Part shown: positions 11,719 through 64,000 of the stretch, piece after piece | How the letters are laid out: each line of letters begins with the position of its first letter | How positions within the stretch are numbered: the first letter of the stretch is position 1 | NCBI RefSeq assembly: GCF_036711975.1 | Contig: NC_091968.1 | Span: 25,901,001 to 25,965,000 of the forward strand | Direction: 5' to 3' | Length of the DNA stretch: 64,000 nt | Origin: Onthophagus taurus | Lineage: Eukaryota; Arthropoda; Insecta; Coleoptera; Scarabaeidae | Translations under genes and position numbers: made by a program | Notes under the pieces: generated by a model | What the model was told of the DNA's origin: nothing | The model's input: only the letters and a program-made list of their open reading frames with translations | Database searches by the model: none

Positions 11719-13288
11719 ATGCCTCCAACTATCCAAAACGGGAATAACCCCCAAACGGATAAACGCCCCGTAAAACCCGGCCAAGGAGAACGACGGTAAA
11801 AGTAATTCAATTTAAAACGAAATTATAACCTAAAAATTTTTATTTTTTAGATCCGAATTGATTTGTAAAGTTAAATATTGCAACACCCTCCCAGACATTC
11901 CGTTCGATTTAAAGTTTATTGCTTACCCTTTTGAATCAACAAGGTTTATTCAATACAACCCAACATCGTTAGAGCGAAATTATCGCTATGAAGTTTTAAC
12001 AGAGCATGATTTAGGAGTTGCGATCGATTTAATCAATAAAGACGTTTACGCAGTTGAGCCCGGTTCTTTACTCGACCCCGCCGATGAAAAACTGCTTGAA
12101 GAAGACATTTTAACACCGCAAGATTCGAAAAGATCTCGCCATCATGCTCGTTCTGTGTCATGGTTACGCCGAACGGAATATATTTCCACAGAACAAACTC
12201 GTTTCCAACCCCAAACGATGGATAAAGTTGAAGCAAAAGTCGGTTATAGCATTAAAAAGAATTTGAAGAATGAGACTTTGTATATGGATCGTGATTCGCA
12301 AATTAAGGCGATTGAAAAGACGTTTGAAGATTCGAAGGTGGTTATAGAGAAGCATTATAGTAAGCCGAATGTTGTTCCAGTTGAAACACTTCCGGTTTAT
12401 CCAGATTTTAAATTGTGGAAGTATCCTTGTGCTCAAGTCATTTTTGATAGCGATCCAGCCCCGGTTGGAAAACAAATGCCCGCTCAATTAGAAGAAATGT
12501 CTCAGGCGATGATTCGAGGTGTTATGGATGAAAGTGGCGAGCAATTCGTTGCCTACTTTCTCCCAGTTGAAGAAACCTTACAAAAACGTCGCGAAGATTT
12601 TGCTAATTTCATTCCATACCAAGATGACGAGGAATACGAATACAAAATGGCTCGTGAATACAATTGGAATGTTAAAAGTAAAGCAAGTAAAGGTTACGAA
12701 GAAAACTATTTCTTAGTTATGAGACAAGATGGGATTTATTACAACGAACTCGAAACTCGCGTCCGTTTAAGTAAACGCCGTCAAAAAATAGGCCAAGCCC
12801 CCAGCAACACTCGTTTGGTCGTTAAGCATCGCCCCATGGACGAACAAGAATTCCGAATGCAACGTTATCGCGAAAAACAACTTGAACCGCCCGGCGAAGA
12901 AGAAGATGAACCAGAAATGGAACCCCAAGTTGAAGATACACAAAATCAAGACGATTCGGAAAAATCAGATGCATCCCGAGCATCGTCTCCGTCATCTGAA
13001 CGATCTAAATCAAGGTCGAAATCTAAATCGAGATCGCGTTCGGTTTCTCCCGCAAAATCTAAATCGAAAAGCCGTTCAAGGTCGCGATCTAAATCACCTT
13101 CTAGGTCAAAATCTCGATCAAGATCTTCTTCGAGGTCGAAATCTAGGTCGAGATCGGCGTCGAAATCGCCGTCAAGGTCTAGATCAAGATCAAAATCGGC
13201 TTCGAAATCACCGTCAAGGTCTAGGTCGGGATCTGAGTCAAGATCTGGGTCAGGGTCGGAATCCGGGGATAAATCTGACAGTGAATAA
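11719..13288 (+). CDS. Paf1: RNA polymerase II-associated factor 1 (Paf1 complex)
   Basis: Exon 1 is 11719-11795 and exon 2 is 11851-13288, joined over a 55-nt phase-2 intron into 504 residues. Starts [10 protein letters not shown], as in animal PAF1 (MAPTIQ in human). Then come [80 protein letters not shown] and [20 protein letters not shown], all highly conserved. PAF1 pairs with LEO1 and scaffolds the nuclear PAF complex in transcription elongation and histone modification (Drosophila atms/antimeros). After an acidic stretch, about the last 100 residues are almost pure Arg-Ser/Lys-Ser dipeptides ending GDKSDSE, a larger RS tail than in human PAF1. Without exon 1 the frame has no ATG start here, so the spliced model is needed. 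Confidence 0.95.
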
Positions 13289-22679: not shown

Positions 22680-23444
22680 ATGAACGCATTCTCCGTGGTA
22701 AGAAATACAAAAATTAATTTGTTTGAAAAAATTATAAATAGATGTCAAATTTGATAGATGTCATATATGTGTCAAAAATTTTCAATAGATGGCGCTATAT
22801 AATTATTAAAATTATTTTTCTTTTTTTAGTGGGTGGCCATAACAATGGCCGTGGTGGTCGTTGCAGAACCACCTTCTGGTTATTCATACAGTAGACCAAG
22901 TGGAGGTGGTGGAGGTTATTCCGGCGGAGGTGGAGGAGGATATTCAGGCGGTGGAGGATATTCTGGAGGTGGAGGATACTCAGGAGGCGGTGGATACTCA
23001 GGAGGCGGTGGATACTCAGGAGGCGGTGGATATTCAGGTGGTGGTCTTTCCGGAGGAGGAGGTGGTTACCAAGCAGTACCTTTTGGTTACCAAACCAACG
23101 AAGGAGCAACCGTTGATCCAGCCCTTTTAGAACAAGTCCGCCAAATTATCCTCAAAGAAGAAATCTCATCCCAATCATCTTCATCGTTCGGAGGTGGCCA
23201 CGGAGGAGGTGGTGGAATAAGTTCAAGTTATGGAGCTCCTTCTCCACAATACGGAGTACCATCATCTAGTTATGGAGTACCCGGATATCAACAAAGAGTT
23301 GTAGGAATTGATTTGGAAGGAATTAAACAAGCGATTCAAGTCGCTCAATACAGCCAAATTAGTCACCAGAGTTTCGGAGGTTATCCAAGCTCAAGTTATG
23401 GAGCTCCATCTCGCCCATCTTCTAGTTATGGCGCTCCTTTTTAA
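22680..23444 (+). CDS. glycine-rich secreted cuticle-type protein, copy 1
   Basis: Exon 1 is 22680-22697 (MNAFSV) and exon 2 is 22830-23444, giving 210 residues. The short first exon plus WVAITMAVVVVAEP makes a signal peptide, the usual exon pattern of insect cuticle genes. The mature part has a GGGGYSGGG repeat block (about seven units), then a non-repetitive core (EGATVDPALLEQVRQIILKE), then several SSYGAP/SPQYGVP repeats like those of resilin-type proteins, ending SSYGAPF. No Rebers-Riddiford chitin-binding domain is visible. Probably a structural cuticle or extracellular-matrix protein. The 3' UTR runs to about 23680. Confidence 0.9.
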
Positions 23445-25533: not shown

Positions 25534-26106
25534 TTAGAACGGAGCTCCATAACTGGAGGATGGACGAGATGGTGCTCCATAAGTGGCCGCGGGGTAACCC
25601 CCGAAGCTTTGATGACTTATTTGACTGTATTGAGCCACTTGAATAGCCTGTTTAATTCCTTCCAAATCAACGCCCGTGACGCGTTGTTGATAACCAGGTA
25701 CGCCATAACTGGTTGAGGGTACACCGTATTGTGGGGATGGAGCCCCGTAGCTTGTGCTAACTCCACCACCTCCTCCTCCAAATGAAGAAGAAGATTGGGA
25801 TGAAATTTCTTCTTTTAAGATAATTTGACGGACTTGTTCTAAAAGAGCCGGATCAACGTTAGCTCCTTCGTTAGTTTGTCCACCGATGGGGACTTGTTGG
25901 TAACCTCCTCCTCCACCACCTCCTCCTCCTCCTCCTCCAGAATAACCTCCACCACCACCACTTGGTCTACTATATGAGTATCCAGAAGGTGGTTCTGCAA
26001 CGACCACCACGGCCATCGTTATGGCCACCCACTAAAACAATTTTCTTAATGTAATTAAGAAAATAAATATAATTAAGTTATTTCTTACCAGGGAGAATGC
26101 GTTCAT
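25534..26106 (-). CDS. glycine-rich secreted cuticle-type protein, copy 2
   Basis: Exon 1 is 26106-26089 (MNAFSL) and exon 2 is 26031-25534, giving 171 residues. Paralogue of the gene at 22680: same signal peptide, same core (EGANVDPALLEQVRQIILKE) and same SYGAP/QYGVP tail ending SSYGAPF. It differs mainly in the glycine block, which is a near-uninterrupted Gly run with a single YSGGG, so about 39 residues shorter. Both copies have intact frames and TATA boxes, so both may be expressed. Convergent (tail-to-tail) arrangement. Confidence 0.9.
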
Positions 26107-57741: not shown

Positions 57742-58839
57742 ATGAAGCAAGGTACGGAGGGGATTTATTATTATTTTTTTCCAAAAATATTCTTAATTTA
57801 TTTTTTATTTAGAAACGAGTAATACTTTGAAATATGTTAGTTTGGTGACTTTAACTGTACAAAATGCTTTATTGGGACTTAGTATGCGATATGCAAGAAC
57901 TAGAGATGGAGATATGTTTTTATCATCAACAGGTAAAAATCACCTTTAAATTTTTAAATTTTAAAAATATATCATTTTTTAGCTGTTCTTATGTCGGAAC
58001 TCGTCAAACTAATAACATGTTTATGCATCGTTTACATTCAAAGTGGAGGAATAGTCGGTTTATTAACATCGTTAAGAGACACGATAATTCACCAACCAAT
58101 GGATACTTTTAAAATTTGCGTCCCATCTTTATTATACATCATCCAAAACAATTTACTTTACGTTTCTGCTTCTCATTTAGATGCAGCAACCTATCAAGTG
58201 ACTTATCAAATGAAAATATTAACAACTGCAATATTCGCGGTTATTATTCTAAGAAAGCAACTTTTAAAAACGCAATGGATATCACTTTTAACACTAGTGA
58301 TCGGCGTTGTTTTAGTACAATTGGCTCAAACTGGGGAAGATCCCAAACATTCGACGGAGCAAAATAAATTAATTGGATTTTTAGCGGCACTTTCAGCTTG
58401 TTGTTTATCGGGATTTGCTGGAATTTTTTTTGAAAAGATGCTAAAAAGTAGCGATATCACCGTTTGGATGAGAAACGTCCAATTAAGTTTATGTTCAATT
58501 CCATTTGGACTCCTAACTTGTTATATTTCTGATGGAAGTGTCATAAAAGAACGAGGTTTCTTCTTTGGATACGATCGATTCATACATTATTTGATTTTAT
58601 TACAAGCTGGAGGTGGTTTAATTGTGGCTGTTGTTGTAAAATACGCCGATAATATCTTAAAAGGATTCGCCACATCTTTAGCTATTGTGATATCATGTAT
58701 AGCTTCGGTTTACATTTTTGAATTTGTTTTAACATTTCAATTTGCAATCGGAGCGGGTTTCGTTATATTTTCAATCTTTTTATATGGATACACTCCTACT
58801 AAATCAACAGTTATTACTGCACCTGCTTATAAAGTGTAA
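57742..58839 (+). CDS. Ugalt: UDP-galactose transporter (SLC35A family)
   Basis: Exons 57742-57751, 57813-57932 and 57983-58839 give 328 residues; the first exon codes only three residues plus one base. Highly similar in pattern to Drosophila Ugalt/Csat: LKYVSLVTLTVQNALLGLSM, RYARTRDGDMFLSSTAVLMS, VSASHLDAATYQVTYQMKIL, SGFAGIFFEKML, VWMRNVQLSLCSIPFGLLTC, VVVKYADNILKGFATSLAIV. A ten-helix Golgi antiporter that brings UDP-galactose (and, in flies, UDP-GalNAc) into the lumen for glycosylation. The end is ambiguous: AAAGTGTAAG can be read as Val-stop or as a donor spliced to TTTTTAG/GCATAAGTAA at about 58970, changing only the last residues. Confidence 0.94.
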
Positions 58840-58989: not shown

Positions 58990-59430
58990 AGAAATCAAAG
59001 TATAAACCTGAAGATCAACCTACGAACAAAAAGATTTATTACAAAACATGTATTATATATTCCAATTTATTACTAATAAATATTTTACTCTGTTTAAGCT
59101 GGGTTTATACCGCAATTCAATTAAATTTCCTTTCTAAATTAAAAGGTTTAATTCAAATCATAACCTATAAAATTTATATCCGCAACCAACATTACGCCTA
59201 ATTGTATCTCAAATACGAACTAAAAGATTTGTTACAAAACATGTATTATATATTCCAATTTATTATTAATAAATATTTTACTCTGTTTAAGTTGGGTTTA
59301 CACCGCAATTCAATTAAATTTCCTTTCTAAATTAAAAGGATTAATTTAAATCATAACCTAAAAAATTTATATCCGCAACCAACATTACACCTAATACGAA
59401 CAAAAAGATTTGTTACAAAACATGTATTAT
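58990..59430 (+). repeat. tandem array, ~190-bp unit, interrupted
   Basis: Two full units begin with GATTTATTACAAAACATG/GATTTGTTACAAAACATGT at about 59030 and 59226, each with TTTACTCTGTTTAAG, GGGTTTATACCGCAATTCAA and ATCCGCAACCAACATTAC. A third starts at about 59408 and stops after CATGTATTAT at 59431. It resumes at about 61381 (AATAAATACTTTACTCTGTT). Confidence 0.88.
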
Positions 59431-59431
59431 A

Positions 59432-61380
59432 CAGGATGAGTCAGAAAGAATGGGAAATCCGAATACCGGAGACACTAGACACCTCTCCTATATACCTAAC
59501 ATCTCTTATACAAATGTCGGTGGTTTTCAAGGCACAAGGTCTTGAAAATTAAATTCTTATTTCGAAATTTCTTAATAATTTTGAAGCTTTTTGTACTATT
59601 AACATAAAATAGAGACAAAATGATAAGTCTAACCAGTTTCGACCCTTGGCCATCTTCGGAGACCCTAGAAATAGATTAACATCCCTCATCCTATCCATTT
59701 TACAAACAAGTTTCTTAATATTTCTTTTTCTTTTGTTAAAAAAGATTACATATCAAAGTCGATATTAGATTATTAAAGAAGATTAGATTATTAATTAAAG
59801 AACGTACTTTTTTAACAAAAGAAATATAGAGAAACTTAAGAAAAACTCAAAAATCATATGGCTTAAAAATCGACGATTTTTTTTAATCAATGTGAAATGA
59901 CTTTTAAAGGTTTTTTTAATAAAGAATACATCATGAAGTTGTCCATTTGTCTATTATATAATAACTAACTTCAGGTTTAAAATGTCAACCTCAATTTTGA
60001 CATATTTATAATCTCCATTAAAAATCCTTTAAAATGAGTACAAACACGACATATTTATCTTCAATATTAATGAAGTTATGGTCATCTTCCGGTTAAGAAT
60101 GTAACCTCAATTTTTCCATATTTGTGATCGTCGTGAAAAATCCTTTAAAATGAGTCCACACATGATACGTTTAATTCCAATATTACTCGAGATATAAACA
60201 ACTTCCGGTTTGAAATGTCAATGTCATTTTGACATATTCTTAATTTTTATAAAATATCTTAATATTTGTCACAAAAACAAAAATATAATAAAAAAAATAA
60301 AAAATTAAGGTTGGTATTAGTATTTAAAAATTAAATTGCTATCTTCTTTGTTGCTAACTTCGGGTTTAATGTTTTTTATTCTAACTTTTTTGTTTTTTGA
60401 GATAAGTGAGTCTTGTTTGGACTCATTTTAAAGAGTCTTTTTAATAAAGAATACATCATGAAAGAACACCATGAAGTTGTCAATTTGTCTATTACATGAT
60501 AACATTAATAACTAACTTTAGGTTTAGAATGTCAACCTCAATTTTGACATACTTGGAATCTTCATTAAAAATCTTTTAAAATGAGTACAAACACGACATA
60601 TTTATCTTCAATATTAATGAAGTTATGATCAACTTCCGGTTAAAAATGTCAACGTCAATTTTGACATATTTGTAATCGTCGTGAAAAATCCTTTAAAATG
60701 AGTCCAAACATGATACGTTTAATTCCAATATTACTCGAGATATAAGCAACTTCCGGTTTGAAATGTCAATGTCATTTTGACATATTCTTAATTTTTATAA
60801 AATATCTTAATAATTGTCACAAAAGTAAAAATATAATAAAAAAAACAAAAATTAAGGTTGGTATTAATATTTAAAAATTAAATTGCTATCTTCTTTGTTG
60901 CTAACTTCGGGTTTAATGTTTTTTATTCTAACTTTTTTGTTTTTTGAGATAAGTGCGTCTTGTTTGGACTCATTTTAAAGGATTTTTAATGAAGATGACA
61001 AATATGTCAAAATTGACGTTGACGTTTCAAACCGGAAGTGATTGTATTTCGATTAATATTAGAGACAAATATTAAACGTTAAATTAAGCGATTAAGGGTT
61101 AAATATTAGTTGAAAGTTCTACCGCTGTCGTTTATAAAATAGATAAGATGAGATAATATGCTAATCTATTTGTAGAGTCTTTAAAGATGGCCAAGGGCCG
61201 AAACTAGTTAGACTTAAATTCTATATAAAATATAAACAAACTTTTAATTTTATACTAACATCTAGAAAACGACACTGGCCAGAAATTGTAGGTTCATCTA
61301 TTATATTGCAGAATGTCTTGGTGTATCTAAGTGTCGTATCTAAGTCGGTTCAGTTAAGTGATGTATAACGCGGTCCACTT
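59432..61380. mobile_element. ~1.95-kb composite insertion carrying R540 units
   Basis: Interrupts one ~190-bp repeat unit. Left part: ACAGGATGAGTCAGAAAGAA, then TTTCGACCCTTGGCCATCTT (about 59637). Right part has the inverse, AAGATGGCCAAGGGCCGAAA (about 61185), so R540 units (about 59900-61080; ATTACTCGAGATA at about 60181 and 60728) lie between inverted arms. The right edge (61215-61380) matches 480-810. No protein-coding frame. Transposition is inferred from the interrupted repeat; the target duplication is unclear. Confidence 0.7.
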
Positions 61381-61520
61381 AATAAATACTTTACTCTGTT
61401 TAAGTTGGGTTTATACTGCAATCCAATTCTAAATTAAAAGGATTAATTTAAATCATAACCTAAAAAATTAATATCCGCAACCAACATTACACCTAACTAT
61501 ATCCGAAATAAAATAGGTTA
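61381..61520 (+). repeat. remainder of the interrupted ~190-bp repeat
   Basis: Continues the unit broken at 59431: TTTACTCTGTTTAAGTTGGG, AATCATAACCTAAAAAATTA, ATCCGCAACCAACATTACAC. The region beyond, to about 61840, is richer in G+C and may hold the promoter and 5' UTR of the next gene. No TATA box recognised. Confidence 0.8.
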
Positions 61521-61844
61521 TAAGATCACGCATGCGCTTACCATCCTAAATTCACTCTTCAGACACATGACTCACTGTTTTTTATCGCCGTTTTCTTCCT
61601 GTCCTTTCATTTTATATTAAAAACACAGCTGATGATCAAAAATTTCGTTTTTTATAACCGGGCCCCCATAAAATGCTGTGATTACCTCTTAAGACTTGTT
61701 GAAACTCGCGTACGTGTGCTCGACTGTGTTGTTGATTGTCGTTTGTTTATGTGCTCAACATGAAACGCTAACTTGGATGCCATGAAATGTACGATCTTGT
61801 TTGTTTTGAGGTTGAGGCCCCTTTTTAAGAGGGCCCCCTGAAAA

Positions 61845-63005
61845 ATGGTTTTGTTATTGGTGGCGATTTGTTTAAGTATGGTCATGATTGTCGCGTTGTG
61901 TTCCTGTTGGCGGCGCGAACAACAAAAGTAAATTTAAATTTAGAAAATCGATTTTTTTTTTAGATTTTAGGTTATGTTCCTTTTTCACTTTTTCCTTATT
62001 TATGTTGAAATTTTCCTTTCTTTTTGATAGAAACGAATGGCACGGCTTAGATGGCATGGTTACCCCTAAAAATCCTGACGAAAATGTAAACCATCTTCCT
62101 TCTATAGCGGAAGCAACCGAACTTGACGAAAATTTGAGGTTATTTTGTTATTTAAAAAAAAAATAATTAATAATAAATCTAAAAATTGTTTCTTTTTTGT
62201 GTATTCGAATTAATATTGAGTATTTATTATCTATTTAATAGAGCAACAACAATCACAAAAACGCGAAGAAGTCTTCCTGACATTCCATCGGAAAACCGTA
62301 CGGAAGCCCACAACCAATGGACTGAACAATCTGGTGATAACACTTCAGATTTATACGCGACTGTTGAGCATTATTCTAATACAGCAGGTTAAAAAAAAAT
62401 TTAAAAAAATTAATTTATAAAAATATAACCTCATTTTTTTGTGTAGCTAAAAGACATACGCTTCCAAATGGAATCGATTCAAGACCAAGTATATCGCAAC
62501 ATAGCTCGATAAGTCAAGCTGATGAAGCCCCATATGCTCGAGTAAACTACGATAAAGTGAAAAAAGAGAATCCTTACGCTAGGGTACAAAATAATCACGC
62601 CGAAATGGATGAGAACAGTTCCGATGACACCGGTTTGTTGAGGCCGTCGACGTCCCAAGCACACGATCCAATCGCGCCGCCAAGATCTCGACGAACCTCG
62701 GCTAATAGCACAAATGGAATTGAAATTCCGGCAGCTACGGCGGTTGCGGGTGGAATTGCAGCTAATGTTGAGTTACCATATATGACCCCACCGATTAGTC
62801 AAGCAAATTTTAGCGGGGATTCACAAGATTCATCAAGTAAAAAAATTATTTTTTAATTAAAAAGCAATTTTTTATGATTCTTTTTTAGAGGGTTATACAA
62901 GTATTAGTGTCCGAGAACCTTTAGAGAAAATTCGAGCCCAAACTAAGCAAGTTACAAAGTTGAGAGATTTCGATCCGCATTATTCTACGGTTTCCGACGA
63001 TTCAG
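61845..63005 (+). CDS. PAG/Cbp-like transmembrane adaptor, 3' end missing
   Basis: Exons 61845-61927, 62031-62138, 62242-62387, 62447-62836 and 62889-63005 join in phase into 281 residues; the last ends at a donor (TCAG/GTAAT), so the gene runs on. An in-frame TGA two codons before the ATG fixes the start. MVLLLVAICLSMVMIVAL is a membrane helix with almost no ectodomain, followed by CSCW, a likely palmitoylation site. The cytoplasmic part is disordered and rich in Tyr motifs: DLYATV, PYARV, NYDKV, PYARV, PYMTP, GYTSI, HYSTV, plus RRSLPDIPSE. Human PAG1 has the same layout, with an LCSSC site, RELPRIPPE and NDLYATV. Such adaptors recruit SH2 proteins (Csk) to lipid domains. The match was made by eye, so orthology is unproven. 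Confidence 0.7.
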
Positions 63006-63240
63006 GTAATAGTATATTAAAAAACTAGTTTCGTAAAACACGCTAGAAATGCAAAAACGAGTGGCGAAGCCAGCCAGTGTCTTATGAAACGTCTTTTTTA
63101 AGCTATTTTTTGTAATTCGCGGTTTTATCCTTACAAAAATTAAAAAAAAAAATAAATAAATTTTGACAATGTAGGGAAATAGGTATGCTGCAGTTGGTAA
63201 CACTTGAAAATAGAAATTTGAATTGACACTTGACTAAGCG
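63006..63240 (+). repeat. dispersed hairpin repeat at the adaptor donor
   Basis: AGTATATTAAAAAACTAGTT, then GTTTCGTAAAACACGC and its partial inverse GTCTTATGAAACGTC, TTTTTTGTAATTCGCG, TAGAAATTTGAATTGACA: the same order as 43304-43520. Confidence 0.75.
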
Positions 63241-63424
63241 ACATTGACATTTTATCGTTTTTGGTATAATAAAATTGTGGTGATGGATAAGCAAGAGAAA
63301 GTAAAAAGATCAAAATCAAAAAAACTTGCTGATAGATTTGGCAAACAAATATAAAAATGTTATAGAAAATAAATAATGATCTAATAATTAAAAAAAATAA
63401 TAATATAATCTAATATACAGGTGT

Positions 63425-63995
63425 TTCTAAATTGATGCGAAAGATTTTAAGGGGTGATTTTTCAGCGAAAATTAAGTTACAAAATTCTCCTCCAAGTTAC
63501 AGCCCTCTAAAATTAGGGGAAAAAATTCTTTTTCTTTAATAAATCCCACTATGGAGGAATTTGAAAAAATCAACCCCATAATACTTTGCATTAGAACTTT
63601 TTAATACGTCTACATTTTTCTATTTAAAAACTTGATTTAAATAGTACTATTCAATACGCAACTTTTTTGTCTCTTGACGTTTTCGCCTAAAATTGTTAGT
63701 TTGATCACAAAAAAATAAAATAATACACAGGCTCAGGTGAATTAATTCAGAGATTGGTTATTACTCCTATTAGTCAAAGAAATGAAGTTATGTCAAATTA
63801 ATCTCAGCATTATTTTATTTTTTGTGATCAAAATAACAATTTGTTAGTTGCAAAATATCAAGAGATAAGAAAGTTGCAGATTTTTACCCTTAAATTTAGA
63901 GAGTTATAACTTGGAGGAGGAGGGGTGTTGACCAAAAAGTTATATTAATTTTCGTTGAAAAATCATCCCATAAAATCTTTCGCTGTAGAACGAGA
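63425..63995. mobile_element. MITE-like element with long inverted ends
   Basis: GCGAAAGATTTTAAGGGGTG at about 63437 faces CATCCCATAAAATCTTTCGC ending at about 63982. Inverted similarity continues inward: TTTTTCAGCGAAAATTAA against TTAATTTTCGTTGAAAAA, CTCCAAGTTACAG against GTTATAACTTGGAG, and TTGATCACAAAAAAATAAAA against TTTTATTTTTTGTGATCAA. The whole ~570 bp folds on a centre near 63770. Non-coding; it lies in the adaptor intron or downstream. Confidence 0.85.
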
Positions 63996-64000
63996 ACTAT

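Follow-up and report, generated by a model that had tools for sequence, protein, structure and literature searches.

The window analysed here is a stretch of 64,000 nucleotides of the Onthophagus taurus genome (290.8 Mb), bases 25,901,001-25,965,000 of contig 3, and towards its end it carries a gene on the forward strand that encodes a candidate transmembrane adaptor. The initial annotation had proposed an exon chain at 61845-63005, and reading of the sequence confirmed five coding exons in this region, all with GT-AG borders and joining phases. According to that annotation, an upstream stop fixes the ATG at 61845 as the start. Indeed, an in-frame TGA is present at 61839-61841, and because only AAA separates it from the ATG, no acceptor is possible between the two. 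The gene runs beyond the window, since its last intron joins an exon that lies outside. The features, all numbered on the scale of the window, are as follows:

61845..61927, forward strand: exon 1 (coding), with the start codon, the N-terminal membrane helix, Cys-Ser-Cys and Trp-Arg-Arg, from sequence and hydropathy
61899..61907, forward strand: C19-S20-C21, candidate juxtamembrane palmitoylation site, from sequence; palmitoylation by likeness to PAG and LAT
62031..62138, forward strand: exon 2 (coding), with GT-AG borders and joining phases
62242..62387, forward strand: exon 3 (coding), with RSLPDIP and DLYATV
62267..62287, forward strand: RSLPDIP, residues 73-79, which fits the class I Src-SH3 pattern [RK]xLPx[VIL]P; binding predicted
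62348..62365, forward strand: DLYATV, residues 100-105, identical to a hexamer in PAG1 (Y359)
62447..62836, forward strand: exon 4 (coding), with the sites YARV, YDKV, YARV and YMTP
62889..63005, forward strand: exon 5 (coding), with the sites YTSI and YSTV; donor gtaata
63006..64000, forward strand: part within the window of the last intron, which spans 63006-66487 (3482 bases)
66488-67587, forward strand: exon 6 (last, coding), beyond the window, with 21 of the 29 tyrosines and the stop codon TGA

The frame behind the acceptor at 66488, which is on the same contig and in the right phase, is open for 366 residues up to the stop codon at 67585-67587, and AATAAA signals are found from 67935 onward. 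Joined together, the coding sequence comprises 1944 nucleotides and encodes 647 amino acids, among them 29 tyrosines. The GC content is 0.38-0.46 in the exons (the last exon taken one base short) versus 0.12-0.27 in the introns. This predicted model was built from the genomic sequence of one species. A scan of the forward strand of the 3.5-kb last intron for acid-plus-Tyr motifs found none, and by eye none of the ORFs of at least 55 amino acids in this intron looks related to the adaptor. The same intron holds an inverted-repeat pair (63420-64000; arms at 63487-63526 and 63880-63919, 85% complementary), which we read as MITE-like, and larger inverted repeats follow beyond the window.

Several other elements surround the adaptor gene. 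Upstream and on the same strand lies a nucleotide-sugar transporter frame at 57958-58839 (Nuc_sug_transp, 4.3e-112). It is followed by direct and inverted repeats at 59021-61510, with units of 157 nucleotides in four copies and of 182 nucleotides in two; the third copy of a further unit, of 84 nucleotides, occupies 61427-61510 and ends some 330 bases short of the adaptor start codon. Further away, the window contains a Paf1 homologue (11834-13288; 1.2e-156), an odorant-receptor frame of the 7tm_6 family, and two similar ORFs rich in Gly, Ser and Tyr, one on each strand (22830-23444 and 25534-26031). These two differ mainly in the length of their glycine runs and by eye form an inverted duplication.

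The predicted protein has the build that the initial annotation had described, namely an immediate membrane helix, Cys-Ser-Cys at the membrane, and a disordered tail with at least seven Yxx[VIP] sites and a SLPDIP box, all of which were found; DLYATV, which it had named for PAG1, is present here as well. The sole strongly hydrophobic stretch spans residues 1-18: the highest Kyte-Doolittle mean over 19 residues is 3.07, at residue 1, and the best mean past residue 40 is 1.21. By hydropathy there is thus one N-terminal membrane helix, as in PAG-type proteins, with no room for a sizeable ectodomain. The helix is followed by C19-S20-C21 and then WRR; by analogy with PAG and LAT, Cys 19 and Cys 21 are probably palmitoylated. 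The absence of charge before the helix and the positive charge after it favour a reverse signal anchor, with the N-terminus outside and the tail inside the cell. This tail of 625 residues is acidic (108 Asp+Glu versus 71 Lys+Arg), and by charge-hydropathy it is predicted to be disordered. It contains eight N-glycosylation sequons, and about seven are expected by chance, as estimated from its composition. The protein ends in IFEV, a class II-like end that could bind PDZ domains.

The tail carries a dense tyrosine array. The motif classes were set after sight of the sequence, and the shuffle counts given here are therefore descriptive and do not represent planned tests. Yxx[VILMP] is present at 25 of the 29 tyrosines (shuffle mean 6.8) and Yxx[VIL] at 23, numbers that were reached in none of 20,000 shuffles. 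The same holds for Y[AST]x[VIM], found at 11 tyrosines (shuffle mean 0.67), and for YEx[VILM], found at 10 (shuffle mean 0.40). An acidic residue is located at positions -4 to -1 of 26 of the 29 tyrosines, as in only one of 20,000 shuffles. Of the eight tyrosines encoded within the window, seven are Yxx[VIP]. For comparison, four other gene ORFs, which we picked from the 20 listed ORFs of the window, contain 73 tyrosines, of which 16 are Yxx[VILMP]. Grb2-type YxN sites showed no enrichment (3/29 versus a shuffle mean of 2.0; three were reached in 6604 of 20,000 shuffles). The two main site classes tend to occupy different parts of the tail: most Y[AST]x[VIM] sites (8 of 11) precede residue 410, and the ten YEx[VILM] sites all fall within 452-620. 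Y[AST]x[VIM] is the form of the Csk site of PAG1, and YEx[VILM] is Src-SH2-like; the labels Csk-type and Src-type used here follow from the sites of PAG1 itself and from general SH2 preferences. YSTV, YTTI, YTSI and others share the form of the PAG1 Csk site Y317 (YSSV).

We compared the codons between pairs of Tyr-centred segments (-4 to +4, Tyr left out). The codon was shared at 198 of 467 amino-acid-identical positions (0.42), and the expectation from the gene's own codon usage was likewise 0.42; the site pairs are not independent of each other. DPNYES, which is present twice, differs in five of its six codons. Since codon sharing is at chance level, the sites are not fresh tandem copies. 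It is likely that selection acts on the protein motifs, the peptide pattern being kept or repeatedly reached while silent positions are free, as judged within one genome.

Two further motifs of the tail resemble PAG1. RSLPDIP and RELPRIP of PAG1 fit one pattern, [RK]xLPx[VIL]P, which arose in 166 of 50,000 tail shuffles; the bare LPxIP, a comparison chosen because the initial annotation had named it, arose in 467 of 50,000. LPDIP is also found in the Paf1-like protein of the window. The LPDIP box alone is not specific and is weaker evidence than the tyrosine enrichment. One hexamer in common with PAG1, as is the case for DLYATV, arose in 257 of 20,000 column permutations, this comparison too having been chosen because the site had been named beforehand. 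When agreement in at least five of six letters was considered, DLYATV itself was the one matching pair of Tyr contexts, a result that was equalled in 8668 of 20,000 permutations. Agreement at this level is unremarkable and speaks against kinship.

Csk and a Src-family kinase are both encoded in the beetle genome. On contig 8, exons at 182122-183414 encode Csk, with an SH2 part that is 62% and a kinase part that is 53% identical to human CSK; the best PDB matches of the SH2 part were CSK chains (1.8e-39). No SH3 exon was found at this locus among the matches listed. A Src-family SH2-kinase frame is located on contig 1 (PDB match SRC, 6.3e-143). The best match of the genome to human CSK was an SH3-SH2-kinase frame, which we take to be Abl-like. 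In Drosophila, Csk phosphorylates both Src42A and Src64B (PMC4764653).

When exon 4 was searched against the genome at E-values up to 0.001, the one match was exon 4 itself. Two weak extra matches of the last exon were rejected as paralogues. The ORF of the first (E 0.004) has a kinase part and is presumably MAST-like, and that of the second (E 1.3) is acidic and of low complexity. Judged by these two exons, the gene seems to be present once in the genome.

Taken together, the protein is very probably a membrane-bound phosphotyrosine adaptor. The best single mechanism, to which we assign a probability of roughly 0.55, is a brake on Src exerted via Csk. As a single-pass membrane adaptor with almost nothing outside the cell, the protein would use its reverse signal-anchor helix to place the disordered tail beneath the plasma membrane, with probable palmitoylation at the two cysteines. 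A Src-family kinase would dock via its SH3 domain on RSLPDIP and phosphorylate the clustered, acid-preceded YxxΦ sites. Csk would then be held on the Y-[A/S/T]-x-[V/I] sites (YSTV, YTTI, YATV, YARV), and the Y-E-x-[V/I/L/M] array would bind Src itself, while single sites might take Nck-like (YDxV) or Crk-like (YMTP) partners. By placing Csk next to Src, the adaptor could locally restrain or switch Src, in the manner of vertebrate PAG/Cbp. The mechanism of PAG is described in PMC3469622, PMC3167820 and PMC4861716. The first proline-rich region of PAG and Y105 dock Fyn (PMC3167820), and Y317 (mouse Y314) docks Csk once it is phosphorylated by Src-family kinases (PMC3469622, PMC3167820).

The same build could also serve a tyrosine-phosphorylated scaffold whose main clients are Nck, Crk, Abl, SHP-2 or PLC-gamma and which is activating downstream of a receptor. 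By general binding preferences, YDKV and YDTV fit the Nck type, YMTP the Crk type and several sites the SHP-2 type. The motif classes are broad, and by such preferences many sites fit substrates of Abl, RTK or Syk, or docking of SHP-2, Nck or PLC-gamma; that the genome's best match to CSK is Abl-like would also suit this scaffold. However, most tyrosines (21 of the 29) belong to the two largest classes, Y[AST]x[VIM] and YEx[VILM], both of them PAG1-like, and the Src-type SH3 box stands between the membrane and the tyrosines, much as that of PAG1 precedes most of its sites. We regard such a scaffold as possible but doubtful. If exon 1 were wrong, or the hydrophobic stretch a cleaved signal peptide, the product would instead be a cytosolic scaffold or a secreted protein. 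The gene model derives from genomic sequence, and exon 2 contains another ATG in frame (residue 37), its frame being open upstream into intron 1. Nevertheless, the donor of exon 1 is in the right phase, its start is fixed by the in-frame stop, the charges around the helix favour N-out anchoring, and an acid-preceded YxxΦ array would be meaningful only in the cytosol. A product lacking the membrane anchor is therefore quite improbable.

The initial annotation had proposed an insect counterpart of PAG-type adaptors, a raft protein docking Csk- or Src-type SH2 proteins, and suggested a profile comparison with PAG1 and LAT. This proposal is supported in part: the architecture, the tyrosine spectrum, RxLPxIP and DLYATV resemble PAG1, no other family was matched, and Csk and a Src-family kinase are encoded in the genome. 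Kinship with PAG1 is not supported. A Pfam scan of the 647-residue protein with E-values up to 10, in which the HMMER filters remove most matches above about 0.1, matched no family, including PAG (PF15347) and LAT (PF15234), nor did an NCBIfam scan of the full protein at the same limit place it in any family. As controls, human PAG1 matched the PAG model at 2.5e-226 and LAT its own at 3e-122. The 281-residue part encoded in the window matched AA_permease_N at E 0.11, which does not reach the cut-off, and this match disappeared with the full protein. The PDB sequence search gave one chance-level match (0.34). Pattern searches for relatives were made in two collections that are not meant to hold insects: viral_contigs gave none, and of 12 pattern matches in genome_contigs none was confirmed. 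A Smith-Waterman alignment of the tail with that of PAG1 scored 74, which was reached by 90 of 1000 plain and by 762 of 1000 motif-preserving shuffles. A true, highly diverged orthologue of vertebrate PAG1 is therefore unlikely, although the order of parts is similar (helix, CSC/CSSC, RxLPxIP, Tyr array, YE sites C-terminal), the hexamer is shared, and the FEV end may bind PDZ domains, PAG having a VTRL motif there (PMC4861716). The position of DLYATV also differs, as it lies near the box here and towards the C-terminus in PAG1. A LAT/NTAL-like activating adaptor, signalling via Grb2 and PLC-gamma, is least probable of all. It would fit the N-terminal helix followed by CSC, comparable to CVHC of LAT, and the three YxN sites, but these are not enriched, whereas 5 of the 10 tyrosines of LAT are YxN, and the LAT profile was not matched. 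The best reading of a PAG-like build with no detectable sequence kinship is convergence or divergence beyond detection. Because the orthologue overlaps with the Csk/Src brake, the odds of these readings do not sum to one.

Among the matches listed from open-licence PMC texts, none describes an insect PAG-type adaptor; an uncharacterised or even named insect orthologue may well exist. If the protein holds Csk at the membrane, flies or beetles would allow tests of how insects localise the Src brake, and the PAG plan of adaptor would no longer be confined to vertebrates. More tentatively, a Csk-docking adaptor might either predate vertebrates or have been reinvented, here as a high-valency hub combining a Src-SH3 box with some ten Csk-type sites. 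If other SH2 proteins dock instead, the protein would still be an unusually dense phosphotyrosine hub.

Among the known systems, NTAL/LAT2, LAX, LIME, SCIMP and other TRAPs share the general transmembrane-adaptor plan. According to PMC4861716, even LAT and NTAL have no major sequence homology, and NTAL and LAX depend on Grb2 sites. The likeness to LAT and NTAL, which had also been put forward, holds for this plan; LAT likewise has a helix at the extreme N-terminus, then a cysteine pair and a tyrosine tail. The comparison is poorer than that with PAG1, as the YxN Grb2 sites on which LAT and NTAL rely are not enriched here. Y[AST]x[VIM] and YEx[VILM] account for 0 and 1 of the 10 tyrosines in LAT versus 4 and 5 of 10 in PAG1, whose spectrum is the one seen in the beetle protein. 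The beetle protein differs from PAG1/Cbp in its size (647 versus 432 residues), its tyrosines (29 versus 10), its FEV end (TRL in PAG1) and its CSC (CSSC in PAG1), and it is devoid of a short ectodomain such as that of PAG1. In PAG1, YE sites also precede the box and follow shortly behind it; those of the beetle are confined to residues 452-620. According to PMC4861716, PAG carries ten tyrosines, a PDZ motif at its C-terminus and two proline-rich ligands of SH3 domains. In common with PAG1/Cbp, the beetle protein has little or no ectodomain, a membrane helix, juxtamembrane cysteines, the RxLPxIP box, Y[AST]x[VI] and YEx[VILM] sites along its tail and a possibly PDZ-binding C-terminus.
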